Shown: positions 54,038-61,513 of the stretch, in pieces
How the letters are laid out: each line of letters starts with the position of its first letter
Numbering within the stretch: the first letter of the stretch is position 1
Assembly (NCBI GenBank): GCA_026129335.1
Contig: JAHCIH010000009.1
Location: 1-64,000, forward strand
Origin: Anaerolineales bacterium
Lineage (GTDB): Bacteria > Chloroflexota > Anaerolineae > Anaerolineales > UBA11579
Reading direction: 5' to 3'
Length of the DNA stretch: 64,000 nt
Position numbers and translations under genes: made by a program
Notes under the pieces: generated by a model
What the model was told of the DNA's origin: nothing
What the model saw: only the letters and a program-made list of their open reading frames with translations
The model's database searches: none

Positions 54038-55657
54038 ATGGCCGTCGCCCTTCGCCCCAACACCGTGAACGCGCTCTGGCAGGGCATCCGCCAGGACGCC
54101 GGCAGCCTCCTGGCTGCCCTGCAGCCTCCCGAAACCCCCAGTACCGGATTGCATTTCTACGACATTGAGAAGCCCGACGGGCGCACTTTCCGCATCCACC
54201 TGCGCGTGGAGCCCAGCGGGAACGGCGTGCTGTTCATCGACGTCACCGATGTGGTCCACCTCAACCAGACCGCTACGCTGATGGCCAAGATGGCGCTGGA
54301 CGGCGTGACGCGCGCCGCCGCACGGGCGCGGCTGGCGGCCTGGCGCAGCGGCGCAGACCCCGCCCGCTTGAGCAGCGAGCTGGACGAAATGTACGACATG
54401 GTCGACAGCTTCCGCCACCCAGATGGCGACTGCGCCACCTGCCGCCTCTCAGATGCGGTGTCCATGTCGCCGCTGTTCAGCATCGAGATCAACGCGCCCT
54501 ATAAAGTGGACATGGCGTTGACCTATGGCTGCAACAACGAGTGCCCGCATTGCTACAATGAAAACGACCGCCTGCAGATGCCTTCGCTGCCGTTGGACGA
54601 GTGGTACGCCGTGCTGGACCGCCTGGCCGAGTTGGGCGTGCCGCACCTCATCCTCACCGGCGGCGAGGCCACCTTGCACCCCGACCTGCCCCAAATCATC
54701 CGCTATGCGGATAGCCTGGGCATGGTGGTGGGCCTGAACACCAACGGCCGCCACATCGCCCACAAGCCTTATATGGATGAGCTGGCCGAAGCCGGCTTGA
54801 ACCACGTGCAGATCACGCTGGGCTCCAGCCGCGCCGAAGTGCACGACGCCATGATGGGCGCTACCTCCTTCGAGCAGACCCTGCGCGGCATCGAGAACGC
54901 CGTGGCCAGCCGCGTGCACGTGATCACCAACACCACGCTGATGCGCGCCAACATGGGCCACGCCGAAGAGATCATTGAATTTCTCTATTCGCTGGGCATC
55001 CGCACCTTTGCGATGAACGGCATGATCTATTCCGGCGGCGGCTTCGATCATCCTTCGGCGATCTCCGAGGCGGAGACGCCCGCGCTGCTGGTGCGGGTGC
55101 GCGACAAGGCCCAGGAACTGGGCATGCGCTTCCTGTGGTACACGCCCACCGAGTACTGCCGCATGTCCCCGGTAGAGCTGGAGATCGGCGCCAAGCGCTG
55201 CAATGCCGGCGAGTATTCGCTGTGCATTGAGCCCAACGGCGATGTGCTGCCCTGCCAGTCCTACTACGTTTCGGCGGGCAATATTCTGCACGACCCCTGG
55301 GAGCAGATTTGGGACGGCGAACTGTTCCGCTCCTTCCGGCATCGCGAGGAAGACCCTAAAGGCTACGGCCTGCCGGAGAAGTGCTGGACCTGCCCCGACC
55401 TGCCGCTGTGCGGCGGCGGCTGCCGTATCGAGCGCGAGGCCCGCGACGGCGTGCGCGTGGCCGGCGAGGGCGGCGGTGGCTGCTCCGGCTGCAGCGGCAG
55501 CTGCGGCACCGGGGGCGCGGCGCACTCCATCAAGAGCCACGTGCACACGGCCGGCTATATCCCCACCGGCGGATTCATCCCCTCGCCCAGCACCACGCGC
55601 ACCACGGTGCGCTCCAGCGGCAACATGTCACTGATCGGCCTGGAGGAAGTACAGTAG
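54038..55657 (+). CDS. Radical SAM/SPASM protein with PqqD-like N-terminus and Cys-rich tail
   Basis: The 539-residue protein has three visible parts. Residues 35-110 look like a PqqD/RRE domain (RIHLRVEPSGNGVL, VVHLNQTATLMAKM). The radical SAM core has the cluster motif C-x3-C-x2-C in YGCNNECPHCYNEN (near residue 165) and GGEATLHPDL. A SPASM region follows with CNAGEYSLC, LPC and CWTCPDLPLCGGGC. The last 70 residues are Gly/Cys/Ser-rich (GGGGCSGCSGSCG) and then Thr/Pro-rich. Such proteins modify peptides; the substrate is unknown. The ATG at 54038 follows TATACT by 6 nt. Confidence 0.87.
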   Translation: MAVALRPNTVNALWQGIRQDAGSLLAALQPPETPSTGLHFYDIEKPDGRTFRIHLRVEPSGNGVLFIDVTDVVHLNQTATLMAKMALDGVTRAAARARLAAWRSGADPARLSSELDEMYDMVDSFRHPDGDCATCRLSDAVSMSPLFSIEINAPYKVDMALTYGCNNECPHCYNENDRLQMPSLPLDEWYAVLDRLAELGVPHLILTGGEATLHPDLPQIIRYADSLGMVVGLNTNGRHIAHKPYMDELAEAGLNHVQITLGSSRAEVHDAMMGATSFEQTLRGIENAVASRVHVITNTTLMRANMGHAEEIIEFLYSLGIRTFAMNGMIYSGGGFDHPSAISEAETPALLVRVRDKAQELGMRFLWYTPTEYCRMSPVELEIGAKRCNAGEYSLCIEPNGDVLPCQSYYVSAGNILHDPWEQIWDGELFRSFRHREEDPKGYGLPEKCWTCPDLPLCGGGCRIEREARDGVRVAGEGGGGCSGCSGSCGTGGAAHSIKSHVHTAGYIPTGGFIPSPSTTRTTVRSSGNMSLIGLEEVQ

Positions 55658-55666
55658 GGGACGGCT

Positions 55667-56209
55667 TTGCGACGCAGGAATTCGAATAGGCTCCAGGGTT
55701 ATGATTACTCCTTACCCGGAGCCTATTTTGTTACCTTGCTTACCAATGAGCGAGCGCCGTTGTTTGGAAAAGTCCATGAAGACAAGGTGATGCTCAGCGC
55801 GCTTGGTGAGTTGGCACAGAGAGAATGGCGGCTATCGGCCGCGATGCGACAAGAAATACGATTGGATGAGTTTGTCGTTATGCCAGACCACTTTCATGCG
55901 ATTGTTTTTATAGATGATCATGATTCCAGAAGCGGAGAACCCCTAAAAAAGACCGTAGGGGCGCACGGCCGTGCGCCCCTACAAGGAGATCAAGCTAAGC
56001 CTCAATCGCGGAAGCCAAGGTCACTGGGTTCGCTAATCGCTGCTTATAAAGCGGCCAGCACGCGTGTAGTTAGGCAGCATCTTGAGAATCCCGACCTAAA
56101 AGTATGGCAGAGAAATTATTATGACCGTGTGGTTCGAAATCAAAATGAACTGGAGCGCATTCGTGAGTACATCGCTTACAACCCTCTGAAGCTTTGGGAG
56201 GGGTGGTGA
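55667..56209 (+). CDS. REP-associated tyrosine transposase (RAYT, Y1 type)
   Basis: The 180-residue protein has the N-terminal RLQGYDYSLPGAYFVT, the HxH motif in VVMPDHFHAIV and a Tyr near SLIAAYK that would be the nucleophile. It therefore looks intact. It starts with TTG at 55667. Its coding region contains a perfect 28-nt palindrome (55955-55982) translated as VGAHGRAPL, apparently inserted in frame. Low GC and position 10 nt after the radical SAM gene suggest a mobile insertion that split the neighbourhood. Confidence 0.85.
   Translation: MRRRNSNRLQGYDYSLPGAYFVTLLTNERAPLFGKVHEDKVMLSALGELAQREWRLSAAMRQEIRLDEFVVMPDHFHAIVFIDDHDSRSGEPLKKTVGAHGRAPLQGDQAKPQSRKPRSLGSLIAAYKAASTRVVRQHLENPDLKVWQRNYYDRVVRNQNELERIREYIAYNPLKLWEGW
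55955..55982. repeat. Perfect 28-nt GTAGGGGCG palindrome inside transposase gene
   Basis: The 14-nt half GTAGGGGCGCACGG is followed directly by its reverse complement. The first nine bases match the intergenic palindrome at 30437-30487. It is in frame and does not disrupt the transposase reading frame. Confidence 0.9.
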
Positions 56210-56276
56210 TGTTCGGATTAGACCCTAGGCGGCGCGCCGCCGTGCGCTCCCACAACTCACGACAGCCGAGGTGAGT

Positions 56277-57143
56277 ATGCCCATTGATCTCGCGTTGTTG
56301 TTTGCGCTAATCCTGGCTCTGGCCTACGGCATTTTCCGTTATCTGCGCTGGCGGCGGGAACGGATGCTGCCCTACACACCGGCGCTGGCGCGCATTGAGG
56401 GCGGCGGGGTCAAGCGCGGGCTGACGCCCGCCGAGGGCGCCGTGCTGCTAGGCCGCCCGCTGCACGTCACCCTGACCCTGGTCATCTTCGAGATGCTGCG
56501 CAAAGGCTTCCTGCGCCAGGTGGCTGCCGAGCCGCTCACCGTCGAGGTGGCCGAGGCCTTTCGCACGCACAACCGCGGCCTCAGCCCGCAGGCGCGCGGC
56601 GACCAGCGCCGCGCCGCCGCGCAGGCGATCAACGCCACCCTGCACTTGTACGAAGAGCCGTTCCTCGAGATCATCGAGGCGCACCCCGGCCGCCCGGTGG
56701 CTGAGCTGGACCTGGGCGTGGCCGTGCAGCCGCTGGTGCGCTATGTAGCCGGCCGGGTGGGCGGCTACAGCCTGGAGGAGAGCCGCGAATATTACCGCCT
56801 GATCATCGAGCGCGCCCCGCGCGAGGCGCGCAGCGACGGCCGGCTGACCTTCGAGCGCCAAAAAGTGTTGGATCGCAATTTCGGTTGGGTGCTGTTGGGC
56901 GAAGACTTCGCCGCTGTGCTGGACGCGCCCGAGTTGAGCTATCTGCCGCTGTGGCTGCGCCCGCCGCGTGCCGCCGTCGATGAGCTGGGCGGGCGCAGCT
57001 TCGCCGCCTGGGCGCAGGCGGTGATGGATTCGCTGGCCGGGGTGGTCGCTGAAGACGATGTGAGGCTGACCCTGGGCCGCGAGGAAGACGCCACCACGGC
57101 GACCCTGCTCAGCGACATCACCCGCACGACATTTTACGGATGA
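56277..57143 (+). CDS. DUF2207-like membrane protein lacking a Cys tail
   Basis: The 288-residue protein has one N-terminal transmembrane segment (LALLFALILALAYGIFRYL) and a soluble part related to the cytosolic half of the protein at 59448-61163: both share R-RM-YTPALARIEG--KRGLT--E-AVLL-like wording and later DRNFGWVLLGEDF / NLEWTMMDKNY. It lacks the N-terminal DUF2207 signal-peptide domain and the Cys-Ala tail. A GTG at 56271 and this ATG are alternatives. Probably a truncated or specialised paralog; function unknown. Confidence 0.7.
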   Translation: MPIDLALLFALILALAYGIFRYLRWRRERMLPYTPALARIEGGGVKRGLTPAEGAVLLGRPLHVTLTLVIFEMLRKGFLRQVAAEPLTVEVAEAFRTHNRGLSPQARGDQRRAAAQAINATLHLYEEPFLEIIEAHPGRPVAELDLGVAVQPLVRYVAGRVGGYSLEESREYYRLIIERAPREARSDGRLTFERQKVLDRNFGWVLLGEDFAAVLDAPELSYLPLWLRPPRAAVDELGGRSFAAWAQAVMDSLAGVVAEDDVRLTLGREEDATTATLLSDITRTTFYG

Positions 57144-57196
57144 GCCTTTGCGAGTTTGATTTATGATTGGCTCTTAGTTGAGTCAAGGAGAACCAG

Positions 57197-58117
57197 ATGT
57201 CTAAATCCCCGAGCCTGTATAAAGCCGAAGATGCCTTCCGCGATTATGTGCCGCGCACTCAGGCGTTCATGGAACTGGGCGCCAAGGCTGGCTTGCGCCC
57301 CGCCGCCGAGGACAAGGCCCGCGGCGCGCTGGTGGTCATCGACATGCAGAACGACTTCGTGCGCCCCGACGGCGCGCTGAGCGTGCCGGGCGCGGAGGCG
57401 GATTTGCAGCGCCTGGTGGAATTCATCTACAACAACGCCGAGCAAATCAGCGCCATCTACTGCACGCTGGATTCGCACTACCCGATGCAGATCTTTTACA
57501 GCGAGTGGTGGCACAACCCGGCCACCGGGGAGCAGCCGGCGGCCTTCACGGTCATCACCGCCGAGAACGTGGCCAATGGCGTTTGGGCCGCCCGGCAGGA
57601 CGCCGAGTGGTCGCAGCACTACGTGGCCGAGTTGGGCAAGCTGGGCCAGAAGCAGCTGATGATCTGGCCCAAGCACACCATGGTAGGCACCTGGGGCCAG
57701 GCGCTGTCGCCGGCGCTGTACGAGGCCATTGCCTGGCACAGCGCCGCCCGCCTGGCGCAGCCGGTCTTCGTGTCCAAGGGCGACCTGCCGCAAGTGGAGC
57801 GCTACGGCGCCTTCGCGTCCGAGGTGGAGTATCCCGGCGACCCGCGCGGCCGCGCAGACAGCGCCTTACTGGACGAGCTGGCCGGCTACGAACGCACCTG
57901 GTGGGCCGGCGAAGCGGAGACGCACTGTGTCATCGCCAGCCAGGTGCAGGCCGCGGAATACTTCGCCAATCAGCCCAAGGTGCTGGAAGGCATGCACTTT
58001 CTGATGGACTGTACCAGCCCCATCTTGCACCCCGAAGTGGACTTCGTCGGCCCGACGCGGGCGGAGCAAGAACGCCTGGCTGGGCTGGGCGTGAAATTGG
58101 TCAAAAGCACGGATTAG
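57197..58117 (+). CDS. Nicotinamidase/isochorismatase family hydrolase
   Basis: The 306-residue protein has the cysteine-hydrolase triad: Asp in VIDMQNDF, Lys in IWPKHTMVG and Cys in ETHCVIAS. This matches nicotinamidase-related enzymes, which cleave amides, but the family also includes isochorismatases and ureidoacrylate hydrolases. It is longer than typical nicotinamidases (about 200 residues). CAAGGAG precedes the ATG, and a strong terminator follows, so it may be a single-gene unit. Confidence 0.83.
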   Translation: MSKSPSLYKAEDAFRDYVPRTQAFMELGAKAGLRPAAEDKARGALVVIDMQNDFVRPDGALSVPGAEADLQRLVEFIYNNAEQISAIYCTLDSHYPMQIFYSEWWHNPATGEQPAAFTVITAENVANGVWAARQDAEWSQHYVAELGKLGQKQLMIWPKHTMVGTWGQALSPALYEAIAWHSAARLAQPVFVSKGDLPQVERYGAFASEVEYPGDPRGRADSALLDELAGYERTWWAGEAETHCVIASQVQAAEYFANQPKVLEGMHFLMDCTSPILHPEVDFVGPTRAEQERLAGLGVKLVKSTD

Positions 58118-58131
58118 GCTTCAGACAAAAA

Positions 58132-58165
58132 GAGGCCGGTCGCAGACCGGCCTCATTGTTTTTCG
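58132..58165 (+). terminator. Terminator after the nicotinamidase-like gene
   Basis: GAGGCCGGTC (58132-58141) pairs with GACCGGCCTC (58145-58154), followed by ATTGTTTTTC. Confidence 0.85.
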
Positions 58166-58167
58166 AT

Positions 58168-58262
58168 GTCATTGCGAGGAGACCCGGCGTAGCCAGGGTC
58201 GACGAAGCAATCTGAACTGTTTTTTGCGAAATGAACCTGGGGATTGCTTCGTCCGCAATGAC
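58168..58262. repeat. Dispersed palindromic repeat, copy 3
   Basis: It starts GTCATTGCGAGG and ends GCAATGAC, with internal arms GACGAAGCAATCT (58201-58213) and GATTGCTTCGTC. Its inner parts match copy 2 closely. It lies between the convergent nicotinamidase-like and degenerate radical SAM genes. Confidence 0.82.
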
Positions 58263-58269
58263 GTGATGC

Positions 58270-59448
58270 CTAAACCTTAGCTTTCCAGATCTTGCTCCAT
58301 TTGTCCGTCAGCATATTGCCCAGTACTTTCTTGCCGCCCTGGCCGGCCAGCACATCGCCGTCCGGTTCCACGTAGAGCCAGGCGCGGCCAGCGCCGTCTG
58401 GCGCTTTGGTTTTCTGTGCCTTGAGTTCCAGGCTCACGGGGTTCAGCGCCGAGTAGGGCACCGGCATGTCCCAGACCAGCGGCAGGCCCACGTGGTTGGC
58501 ATGGTCGGCGGCGGCTTGCAGCTGCTCGCTGAGCGCCGCATCGCTCTCGCTCAGCGAGAGCGCCCGCACGCCGCTCTCGGCGATGCGGTCAATCAGCGCG
58601 TTGATCGTCTTGGCGTTCTGCTTGGTCAACGTCAGGTGGGCGGCGATGAAAATGTCGTCGTCCAGCACCTTGCGCCAATAGGCGAAGCTGGCCAGCGAGT
58701 CCCAGGTCTCTTCTTTGTTGGGCTGCAGCACGATCATGGCGTGGTCCAGGCCGGCGTCGAGTAAGGTTTTCAAATAGCGCGTGTCACCCAGTTTGCGGCC
58801 GTCGGTGATCAGGCCGGTGACCAGGCCGTGGGCCTCGCCGTGCTGCAGCAGCTGCGGCAGGTCCTCACGCAGGGTTGGCTCGCCGCCGGTGAAGAGCACG
58901 TGCGGGATGCCGACCTCATAGGCCTTGTCGATCACCTGCTTCCATTCGTCGGTGCTCAGCTCTCGGGTCACGCGCTTGTGCGGCGTGGCATCCCGCGGCG
59001 CGCCGGCGGGCAGCTTGTAGGTCAGCGCGCAGTCCAGTCGGTAGGGCGCGGTCATCGGGTCGCTATATGGAGCCTGGCGTTCGAGGTCCAGGTAGGTCAC
59101 CGGGTCGAGGTCTGGCGTCTCGATGAGCGTCTGCAAGCTTTGGGCGAAGTCGGCGTAGTCTTGCTTGACCTGCTTTTTACTGGTGCGGTAACGTTTGCTG
59201 ACCTGGGCGGCGACTTCATCCGGCGGGGTCAGATGGATGAAGTGGTAAGCGTATTCAGTGGCTGTCTGGTTGAGGTGCAGCACAGTGGACGCATTGAGCA
59301 CCAGCAGTCCCAGCCCGCCCGGCTCGACGCGCAGGTGCAAGCGGTAATGGAATGGGTGGCTGGCCGGCGCAGTGTAGGTATAAAAGCCGGGTTCCAGCGG
59401 CGCGGCAGGTTCGCCGCCGATGCCGAAGCGTTCCAGCAGGCCGGGCAT
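58270..59448 (-). CDS. PqqD/radical SAM-like protein without cluster cysteines
   Basis: The 392-residue protein has an N-terminal PqqD/RRE-like domain (LHLRVEPGGLGLL, VLHLNQTATEYAYHFI, then a KRYRTSKKQVKQDYADF helix). It continues into a radical-SAM-like barrel with GGEPTLREDLPQLL. Where the paralog at 54038 has the C-x3-C-x2-C motif, this one reads YKLPAGAPRDATPHK, and the SPASM cysteines are also absent (VEPDGDVLAGQGG). It is therefore likely non-catalytic. Its ATG shares one base with the upstream stop (TAATG), so translation is coupled to the Cys-tailed protein. Confidence 0.85.
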   Translation of the reverse strand: MPGLLERFGIGGEPAAPLEPGFYTYTAPASHPFHYRLHLRVEPGGLGLLVLNASTVLHLNQTATEYAYHFIHLTPPDEVAAQVSKRYRTSKKQVKQDYADFAQSLQTLIETPDLDPVTYLDLERQAPYSDPMTAPYRLDCALTYKLPAGAPRDATPHKRVTRELSTDEWKQVIDKAYEVGIPHVLFTGGEPTLREDLPQLLQHGEAHGLVTGLITDGRKLGDTRYLKTLLDAGLDHAMIVLQPNKEETWDSLASFAYWRKVLDDDIFIAAHLTLTKQNAKTINALIDRIAESGVRALSLSESDAALSEQLQAAADHANHVGLPLVWDMPVPYSALNPVSLELKAQKTKAPDGAGRAWLYVEPDGDVLAGQGGKKVLGNMLTDKWSKIWKAKV

Positions 59449-61163
59449 TAGCGACCGCCTCCGGCGCAGGCACAGGCGCAGCCCGCACAGGCGCAGGCGC
59501 ACGAGGAGCCGCCGCCGCTAAATCCGCCGCCACCACTGCTGGTGCGGCTGGGCGGCGGGGGTGGGTTGGTCACCTTGGTCACGCCGCCAGTGAAGCTGGA
59601 CAGGTTGCCGATCACGCCGCCGGCCATGTTTTGGGCGCCCTGCACCACAGAGGCGGCGAAGTTGCCGCCCGGCAGGGTGGGCAGCGAAACACCGCCACCG
59701 GTGGACCGCGTTGGAGCGCTCGGCGCCCGCCCGCTGCCCGCGCCGGCGCTGCGGTAGGTCGGGTCGTAGCGGCCCCACCACATCGGCGCGTGCACGGTGC
59801 CGCCGCCGAAAGTATCCCGCGTGCGGCGCTCGTAGTTCTTGTCCATCATGGTCCACTCGAGGTTCTCTTCGTAGAGCTTGCTCTGGACCTTGGGCGTGCC
59901 CGCGGCTTCTACCTGTGTCCAGGCATCCTCGGCGATCTTGCGGTAGAAGTCCGTCGTCTCGCGTTTGCTGAAGCCGCGCATCTTGTTGCCCACGCCTTTG
60001 ACCAGGCGCACCATCATGTCCTGTAGCTCCTTGCGGCGCTTGGTGGTGTTGCCCTCTCGGAAGGCGCCGATGAACTGCTGTTCATAATCGCGCAGCTCCA
60101 ACGGGTAGGGCGGTTCGGCGATCTTCAGTTCCAGCGGAGTTTGTTTGACCACTTCGGCGACGCCCTTCTTGATCGTCGAGAAGAGGATCATGCCGAGGAT
60201 CTTGTCCATCGGCTGCTCCAGAAGCACGGCGGCTTCCGGCGCGGTCAGGCCACGCTTGATGCCGTGGCCCTCAATGGCGATCTTGGGCGGCAGGTACTGC
60301 ATGCGCCGCTTGCGCTCGGCGGCGAAGCTGGCCCAAATGATCACGATGATGAAAATGGCGAAGCACAGGCAGAGCAGGAAGGGGATGACCACTTCGGGGT
60401 CCAGCCCCAGTCGCTGCCAGATGCTGGGCTCCAGGATGGCGCCGGCGGGCACATAGTGTGCCGGGAACGACGCGCCGAAGACATACTCCCGCGACGGGCT
60501 GGCGCTGGTATTGCGCCAGGTGTAGGTGATGCGGCCCTGGCTGTCCCGGCCGGTCAACGGCTCATCGGGGAAGCCGGGGTGGCCGGCGGTGTGCCAGCGC
60601 GGTTCGTCCGGCGTGACCCCGTGCGGCAGGTGGAAAGTGACCGTCAGGTCGGTGGTGCCGTAGGTGAACTCGCTGCCGAAGTAATTGGGCATGAACAGCG
60701 CGCTGGCGTAATCGCTGTCCTGGTTGTCGGTGTAGAGCACCTCGCGGATGCCCACCACCCGCGCCCGGAAGGTGCCGCTGGCCCCACCGGGGATCGGGTT
60801 GCTGAACCAGATCGCCGGTCCGGCGTCGATGTAGGGCGATTGGCGGTCAATAAACGAAGCCGGCTGGCCGTTGAGCGAAGCGCTGATCGCGCCAGCCGAA
60901 TAATTCCTGTTCGGCAGGCCCAGGTCGACCACGTCGATGGGGTGCGCGCCGACGCCGTTCTGGAATACCACTTCGTATTCCACGGTCATCGAGCCGTCGG
61001 TTTCCCAATAGACGTCCACCCAGGCGCGCGGGACGGAGAAGTAGTAGTCCTGCGCCGCGGCGCTGAACGGCGCGGCCAAGGCGACGACGAGGACCAACAG
61101 TAGCGGCAGCGCGCGCCAGAACGATTTGAATTTGTTTTGGGCCGGGGTGGAGCGGTTTACCAT
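59448..61163 (-). CDS. DUF2207 membrane protein with C-terminal Cys-Ala tail
   Basis: The 571-residue protein starts with a signal peptide (LPLLLVLVVALAAPFSAAAQ). A DUF2207 extracytoplasmic domain follows (VEYEVVFQNGVGAHPIDVVDLGL). A transmembrane segment (VVIPFLLCLCFAIFIIVIIW) and a cytosolic region related to the protein at 56277 come next. After a Gly/Ser linker it ends with the residues CACACAGCACACAGGGR, six cysteines in eleven residues. The ATG at 61163 overlaps the upstream stop, and the downstream radical-SAM-like gene overlaps its stop. The tail is a plausible target of post-translational modification. Confidence 0.85.
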   Translation of the reverse strand: MVNRSTPAQNKFKSFWRALPLLLVLVVALAAPFSAAAQDYYFSVPRAWVDVYWETDGSMTVEYEVVFQNGVGAHPIDVVDLGLPNRNYSAGAISASLNGQPASFIDRQSPYIDAGPAIWFSNPIPGGASGTFRARVVGIREVLYTDNQDSDYASALFMPNYFGSEFTYGTTDLTVTFHLPHGVTPDEPRWHTAGHPGFPDEPLTGRDSQGRITYTWRNTSASPSREYVFGASFPAHYVPAGAILEPSIWQRLGLDPEVVIPFLLCLCFAIFIIVIIWASFAAERKRRMQYLPPKIAIEGHGIKRGLTAPEAAVLLEQPMDKILGMILFSTIKKGVAEVVKQTPLELKIAEPPYPLELRDYEQQFIGAFREGNTTKRRKELQDMMVRLVKGVGNKMRGFSKRETTDFYRKIAEDAWTQVEAAGTPKVQSKLYEENLEWTMMDKNYERRTRDTFGGGTVHAPMWWGRYDPTYRSAGAGSGRAPSAPTRSTGGGVSLPTLPGGNFAASVVQGAQNMAGGVIGNLSSFTGGVTKVTNPPPPPSRTSSGGGGFSGGGSSCACACAGCACACAGGGR

Positions 61164-61513
61164 TTGGGTTTCTCTTCGACCTGGTAGACCGCGCCGCAAT
61201 AAGGGCATTCCACATTCAGCGCGCCGCCCACCAGGCGCACATTGTCGCCGCTGAGCGCGCCGCCGCACTGGCGGCACTGGAAGTTCTCCAGGTTTACGTC
61301 ACCGCTCAGTTCGACCTGGTAGGTGACCTTGTGCTCCTGGGCTGCGGGGTCTTTGCGGTTGACGTACCAGATGATCGCCAGGCCGATGGCGCTGCTCAGC
61401 GCGCCGACCGCGATCCAGCCAATGCCGCCGCCTTCTTCACTGAAAGCGCCCCAAATAAAAAGCACGCCAAAAAATACAAGAATGGCGGCTACGATGTTGC
61501 CGACTGTTTTCAT
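61157..61513 (-). CDS. Membrane protein with C-terminal zinc ribbon
   Basis: The 118-residue protein has two transmembrane segments (VGNIVAAILVFFGVLFIWGAF and GWIAVGALSSAIGLAIIWYV). A soluble tail follows with CRQC and CPYC, two CxxC pairs likely to bind zinc. Its last codons overlap the next gene's ATG by 7 nt, so it is the first gene of a three-gene operon with the Cys-tailed protein and the degenerate radical SAM protein. Role unknown; perhaps a scaffold or metal-binding partner. Confidence 0.8.
   Translation of the reverse strand: MKTVGNIVAAILVFFGVLFIWGAFSEEGGGIGWIAVGALSSAIGLAIIWYVNRKDPAAQEHKVTYQVELSGDVNLENFQCRQCGGALSGDNVRLVGGALNVECPYCGAVYQVEEKPKW

Follow-up and report, generated by a model that had tools for sequence, protein, structure and literature searches.

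Radical S-adenosylmethionine (SAM) enzymes such as SkfB, SuiB, and CteB are maturases of ribosomally synthesized and post-translationally modified peptides (RiPPs) and form thioether or C-C bonds, and in the QhpD/quinohemoprotein amine dehydrogenase system, radical SAM thioether synthesis takes place on a protein subunit (PMC8326336). The "near uncomplex" Cys-tailed membrane proteins of family TIGR04222 occur with MNIO enzymes, and their status as substrates is proposed but unproven (PMC12452194); this proposal is the published idea nearest to the one developed here. For DUF2207 proteins, a knockout in Streptococcus mutans weakened tolerance to acid and oxidative (peroxide) stress (PMC10457818). 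Here, we analyzed a stretch of 64,000 nucleotides from an Anaerolineales bacterium (assembly GCA_026129335.1, contig JAHCIH010000009.1, positions 1 to 64,000), hereafter called the window. It encodes a radical SAM enzyme, rSAM1, with a RiPP recognition element (RRE) and a SPASM domain, as well as an operon for a membrane protein that ends in a tail of alternating cysteines and alanines. We consider it likely that they form a dedicated protein-modification system in which the RRE-radical SAM-SPASM enzyme modifies the Cys-Ala tail of the membrane protein. The genes and parts concerned are the following, in window coordinates.

59451-59501, minus strand: invariant tail CACACAGCACACAGGGR, with six alternating Cys, predicted disordered
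59448-61163, minus strand: tail protein, a membrane protein of ~570 amino acids ending in CACACAGCACACAGGGR; second operon gene
61157-61513, minus strand: zinc-ribbon (Znrib) protein with two transmembrane (TM) segments; first operon gene
58270-59448, minus strand: pseudo-radical-SAM protein (pseudo-enzyme) of 392 amino acids, with an RRE and a radical-SAM-like barrel; third operon gene
54038-55657, plus strand: rSAM1, the active RRE-radical SAM-SPASM enzyme, 539 amino acids from the ATG at 54038; a longer open reading frame (ORF) opens at TTG 53981
54146-54415, plus strand: PqqD-like RRE of rSAM1 (model strands 37-75, helices 77-126)
54530-54553, plus strand: CxxxCxxC [4Fe-4S]/SAM motif of rSAM1 (C165, C169, C172), invariant in 64 members
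55199-55423, plus strand: SPASM domain of rSAM1 (C388, C406, C449, C452, and C458 invariant)
55424-55657, plus strand: C-terminal extension of rSAM1, GGGGCSGCSGSCGTGG...HTAGYIPTGGF..., predicted disordered

The tail takes the form (CA)3-5-G-(CA)3-GGGR. Its last 17 residues are invariant in 72 diverse homologues with 28-79% identity to the window protein, against only six invariant columns in the rest of the protein; the mean column identity of the set is 38%. The repeat ahead of the central Gly is (CA)4 in 43/72 homologues, (CA)3 in 15/72, and (CA)5 in 14/72, and most tails carry six to eight alternating Cys. At 60 loci, the final 15 residues (CACAGCACACAGGGR) do not differ, and the synonymous codons of the tail vary freely for Cys, Ala, Gly, and Arg. 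A scan of GTDB with a degenerate DNA pattern for the tail returned at least 119 matching stretches, 80 of which were read. All 80 tails read CACAGCACACAGGGR-stop, R-stop not being required by the pattern, and each readable one is the C-terminus of a protein homologous to that of the window (two lie too near a contig end). Most of the 80 hosts are Chloroflexota (59); the others include Fermentibacterota, Aminicenantes, Coatesbacteria, Edwardsbacteria, and Zixibacteria, one Acidobacteriota, one Actinomycetota, and six Asgard archaea (Hodarch-, Heimdall-, Sigyn-, and Lokiarchaeota). No fewer than nine groups of bacteria and archaea have the tail, and its real spread is wider than the matches listed. 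Since most of the hosts are metagenome bins, individual taxon assignments may be wrong. Rare natural variants also occur (CACACAACACACAGGGR, CACACAGCACACACAGGGR, and a short CACACAGGGR). It is very unusual for so short and repetitive a motif to stay unchanged at every residue between Anaerolineae and Asgard archaea in a protein that drifts to ~30% identity.

The reversed tail pattern gave no match in 251 genomes of the order, in which the true pattern matched 169; together with the R-stop found in 80/80 tails, this ruled out a chance or low-complexity artefact. A viral origin was rejected, as the tail pattern had no match in IMG/VR. The only other Cys-Ala-like DNA match in the window genome (contig C12) crosses a sensor-kinase ORF in a different reading frame and was taken as chance, and a CHR-like repeat in genome G172 was set aside because it does not belong to a tail protein.

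The tail and the enzyme occur together. In a sample of 301 Chloroflexota genomes, an enzyme scoring above 600 bits was present in 20/20 tail-bearing genomes (626-721 bits) and in 0/281 tail-free ones. The next scores were 353 and 342 bits, which belong to the enzymes of a second tail type described below, followed by pseudo-enzymes at 305 bits or less. Among the 251 genomes of the order, 166 had both tail and enzyme, 3 the tail only, 10 the enzyme only, and 72 neither (Fisher 1e-47). Among the ten genomes with the enzyme alone, two (G487 and G338) have variant tails missed by the pattern, and in two others (G498 and G392) the tail protein is cut or broken. Enzyme and tail are absent together from near-complete genomes (e.g., G046, G055, G080, G120, and G176), though their families otherwise have the system. 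Where no enzyme lies near a GTDB locus (Edwardsbacteria, Sigynarchaeota, Lokiarchaeota, and others), it is encoded elsewhere in the genome; among the unlinked cases, all eight genomes tested carry the enzyme, adjacent or elsewhere (524-670 bits). Linkage alone is insufficient to explain these unlinked cases. A preliminary description, made from the letters of the window, had proposed the tail as the substrate, to be refuted if relatives kept neither the gene pairing nor the Cys tail. The proposal passed this test and is supported, with an invariant tail from bacteria to Asgard archaea and the enzyme counts above (20/20 vs 0/281; 166:3:10:72), also where the genes are unlinked. Chemical modification of the tail is what we infer.

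Sequence comparison identified two domains of rSAM1 (Radical_SAM, E=5e-28; SPASM, E=1e-12), and SPASM (PF13186) was matched in 20/20 of its homologues. The N-terminal RRE is predicted as a winged helix of four strands and three helices. PF05402 (PqqD) was matched by 16/20 homologues (best E=6.5e-7), window rSAM1 itself having no sequence match, so that the complete radical SAM/SPASM protein with a PqqD-like domain seen in the preliminary description is borne out, for the RRE by homologues and model. The rSAM1 model (pLDDT, the predicted local distance difference test, of 83) comprises an N-terminal RRE, a barrel, and a SPASM domain, and the closest solved folds to this predicted structure are SkfB, SuiB, and CteB (415-472 columns). 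PQQ and mycofactocin maturases are among its sequence relatives, and the window enzyme scores far under every NCBIfam cut-off. The C-terminal extension (GGGCSGCSGSCG) is conserved in the family of the window and in G338 and is missing from the operonic enzymes read; it resembles a precursor peptide or an additional cluster site fused onto the enzyme.

The three minus-strand genes form an overlapping operon, as first described, with start and stop codons overlapping at both junctions. The Znrib stop (61159-61157) falls within codons 2 and 3 of the tail gene (ATG at 61163), and TAATG at 59450-59446 is shared between the tail-gene stop and the start of the third gene. In other families of the order, the gene order is Znrib, tail protein, active enzyme, and pseudo-enzyme. 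The active enzyme is inside the operon in most relatives, and its separate location is a trait of the window's own family. There, it usually adjoins a gene called DUF_B and is convergent with the operon; some members of this family have it on a different contig or 130 kb off. Orthologues of rSAM1 were found in 20/24 genomes of the family. Nearly all of these genomes give two enzyme-family matches, rSAM1 and the pseudo-enzyme; the rSAM1-type enzyme is the sole active family member found there. The enzymes of this family are divergent (36-41% identity to operonic enzymes) and did not group with other Chloroflexota enzymes in the tree, where their placement is weakly supported.

The operonic radical-SAM-like protein is a pseudo-enzyme, since it has lost both the CxxxCxxC motif, with LTYKLPAGAPRDATPH in place of the active enzyme's LTYGCNNECPHC, and the SPASM cysteines. 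These losses are common to all 19 aligned pseudo-enzymes and to every member of the wider set read. The RRE is retained (PqqD, PF05402, matched in 35/36), as is the GGE motif, and the tree puts the pseudo-enzymes outside the active enzymes. Of the two radical SAM genes of the preliminary description, both are present, and only one can be catalytic. Among the loci read, the pseudo-enzyme was seen only in Chloroflexota, with three partial matches at locus edges being undecidable. It is best read, from its sequence, as an enzyme duplicate that turned into an accessory protein.

The tail protein consists of a signal peptide, an ectodomain, one TM, a cytosolic helical domain, a flexible Gly/Ser linker, and the Cys-Ala tail. 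Its model (pLDDT 87) is well folded save for the tail (about 40), which is predicted to be disordered. Lys plus Arg show a positive-inside bias after the TM (3.75 vs 1.06). Given the signal peptide and the single TM with positive charges after it, the tail is probably located in the cytosol, where a cytosolic enzyme could reach it. The ectodomain (model residues 37-235, about 61052-60456, minus strand) is closest to a domain of OST1/ribophorin I (Z 17.1) and also resembles M1-peptidase N-domains. An OST1-like fold, known from a subunit of the eukaryotic oligosaccharyltransferase, sits in a protein family that is present also in Asgard archaea. No fold match is listed for the cytosolic domain, the fold search having covered essentially the ectodomain alone, so this does not point to a new fold.

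The window tail protein has no match among Pfam and NCBIfam models, and the tail motif itself is without an entry in either database. The DUF2207 label in the preliminary description does not hold at the level of Pfam, since PF09972 matched 0/19 tail-protein members even at E 0.1, but profile-profile comparison (hhalign) with true DUF2207 proteins gave a probability of 99.4% over 482 columns, and by this comparison the tail protein is judged a remote DUF2207 relative. TIGR04222 did not match the window protein and matched 1/19 tail proteins weakly (E=0.0022). As the tail protein is without an NCBIfam or Pfam match and the enzyme of the window misses every cut-off, assignment to a known named family was rejected.

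At two other Chloroflexota loci, L049 (genome G136) and L323 (G011), there is a related membrane protein with ACHSACHSACHSACVHDACHSAC... repeats at its C-terminus.

L049:8093-9847, minus strand: CHSA-tail (Cys-His repeat) membrane protein
L323:1396-3168, minus strand: CHSA-tail (Cys-His repeat) membrane protein

In both genomes, the gene directly after the CHSA-tail gene encodes an RRE-radical SAM-SPASM enzyme that belongs to a distinct subfamily. Since the CHSA tail is paired with its own enzyme subfamily, tail type and enzyme subfamily change together in these two cases.

We propose that the RRE of the enzyme would hold the membrane protein at its C-terminal region, through the tail or the linker, that a 5'-deoxyadenosyl radical would attack carbon atoms of the tail, and that the SPASM clusters would assist bond formation. 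By analogy with the related maturases, the most plausible products would be thioether crosslinks from Cys sulfur to carbon atoms of neighbouring residues on the cytosolic side. Ala at alternate positions might be the natural acceptor or a spacer, and the terminal GGGR a fixed element for recognition or for setting the boundary. In Chloroflexota, the pseudo-enzyme, as a dead duplicate with an RRE and a pseudo-barrel, would probably help to present the tail as an extra RRE or scaffold. The outcome would be a modified module borne by a protein and anchored permanently in the membrane, rather than a secreted peptide. Our best guess at its physiological role is a metal- or redox-responsive membrane module. 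The S. mutans phenotype, as the sole functional hint, is by analogy compatible with a redox or metal role and is not proof of one. With somewhat less than even confidence, we further suggest a hitherto undescribed class of protein-borne cofactors that crosses domains of life, in which a rigid modified Cys-Ala tail, made by its own radical SAM family, would be a metal or redox centre at the cytosolic face, the CHSA tails being a second member.

Several points weigh against modification of the tail by this enzyme. The co-occurrence counts are not phylogenetically independent, the substrate would be a membrane protein of ~570 amino acids whereas known maturases of the class act on short leader-core precursors, and the divergence of the enzyme in the window's family (36-41%) means that its substrate there could have shifted. 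Moreover, clustered alternating cysteines could be an unmodified metal site. In that case, the tail would bind zinc, copper, or an Fe-S cluster and have the zinc-ribbon protein for a partner, and the enzyme would act on another target of the pathway. The six to eight alternating Cys of most tails, the zinc-ribbon protein encoded in the operon, and the SUF-type genes that one family has near some of its loci all suit such a site, for which, nevertheless, neither an invariant Ala at alternate positions nor an exact GGGR end would be needed. The enzyme also accompanies the tail where the two are unlinked, and the other tail type has its own enzyme subfamily. Hence, we regard an unmodified metal site as improbable.

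Equally unlikely, in our view, is that the tail is a precursor cleaved after modification to yield a small peptide or a peptide-derived redox cofactor (cf. PQQ and mycofactocin), with the membrane protein as a delivery scaffold. The PQQ and mycofactocin maturases among the relatives of the enzyme and the attachment of the tail through a flexible Gly/Ser linker would fit this idea. However, no protease, oxidase, or transporter gene recurs across the loci, and a large membrane protein with a folded ectodomain would be a costly single-use carrier. A tail that is modified and stays in place remains our preferred reading.

The other features of this part of the window are given below.

55667-56209, plus strand: REP-type (REP-associated) tyrosine transposase, directly downstream of the relocated rSAM1
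56271-57143, plus strand: DUF_B, with one TM and no tail; paralogue of the cytosolic domain of the tail protein
57197-58117, plus strand: isochorismatase-like gene

DUF_B, the second DUF2207-like protein of the preliminary description, adjoins rSAM1 throughout the window's own family and accompanies the relocated enzyme there and in G338. Every gene named in that description was found where it had placed it. The host genome (2.0 Mb, 72% complete) clusters with Chloroflexota/Anaerolineae relatives. Across the compared loci, 111 of which have Znrib homologues, the core genes are the only ones to recur throughout: no protease, oxidase, transporter, or other further gene does so, nor does any other small gene among ORFs of at least 100 amino acids, shorter ORFs not having been clustered. 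In some families, SUF-type Fe-S assembly genes (cysteine-desulfurase-like and SufU/NifU-like, by eye) lie near the operon (L106-L115, e.g., L110:4551-5051 and L113:14764-16128), which may be plain synteny. Genome G096 has a pseudo-enzyme (C35:2604-3740) left without active enzyme or tail protein, where the system is possibly decaying. In G200, 34 kb from the operon, a predicted Ser/Thr kinase is fused to a tail-protein-like ectodomain and a seemingly formylglycine-generating-enzyme-like domain (L320:706-3405, minus strand).

If the proposal is true, radical SAM peptide chemistry would extend from secreted peptides to a permanent part of a membrane protein, and a way into the role of DUF2207-like proteins would be available. 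Because of the genetic tie between the tail and a single enzyme family, the chemistry is directly testable, and the natural (CA)n ladder, the shortened variants, and the CHSA tails are ready-made test substrates.

Among known systems, the sactipeptide and ranthipeptide maturases SkfB, SuiB, and CteB share the RRE-radical SAM-SPASM domain order and the closest solved folds, and in their systems, as here, a gene for a Cys-rich target lies beside the enzyme gene. The candidate target is, however, the C-terminus of a conserved membrane protein and not a short leader-core peptide, one invariant tail is kept across domains of life, and there is no conserved export or protease gene. QhpD is similar, by description, in that its target is a protein rather than a secreted peptide, but its substrate is another one and its system is without repeat tail or membrane scaffold. 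The TIGR04222/MNIO pairs likewise have a modifying metalloenzyme next to a membrane protein whose C-terminus is of low complexity and contains Cys; they differ in using an MNIO enzyme instead of radical SAM and in their Gly/Ser-rich, variable, and predicted periplasmic tails. No MNIO gene was among the genes common to all loci, no MNIO-specific search having been made. The haloarchaeal pseudo-SAM/SPASM family TIGR04347 is radical-SAM-like too, but the window pseudo-enzyme scores 55 bits against a cut-off of 525 and differs in carrying an RRE and in being a duplicate of the partner enzyme. For the ACGX system (TIGR04340), the window enzyme reaches 68 bits against a cut-off of 400; no mention of the tail turned up in 5.4 million open papers, and none of the ACGX system in the papers searched. 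With DUF2207 (PF09972), the tail protein shares the signal peptide, ectodomain, TM, cytosolic domain, and Gly-rich end, except that the invariant Cys-Ala tail replaces the ordinary Gly-rich end. The enzyme class is a known one, while the substrate type and the cross-domain invariance are, to our knowledge, new.

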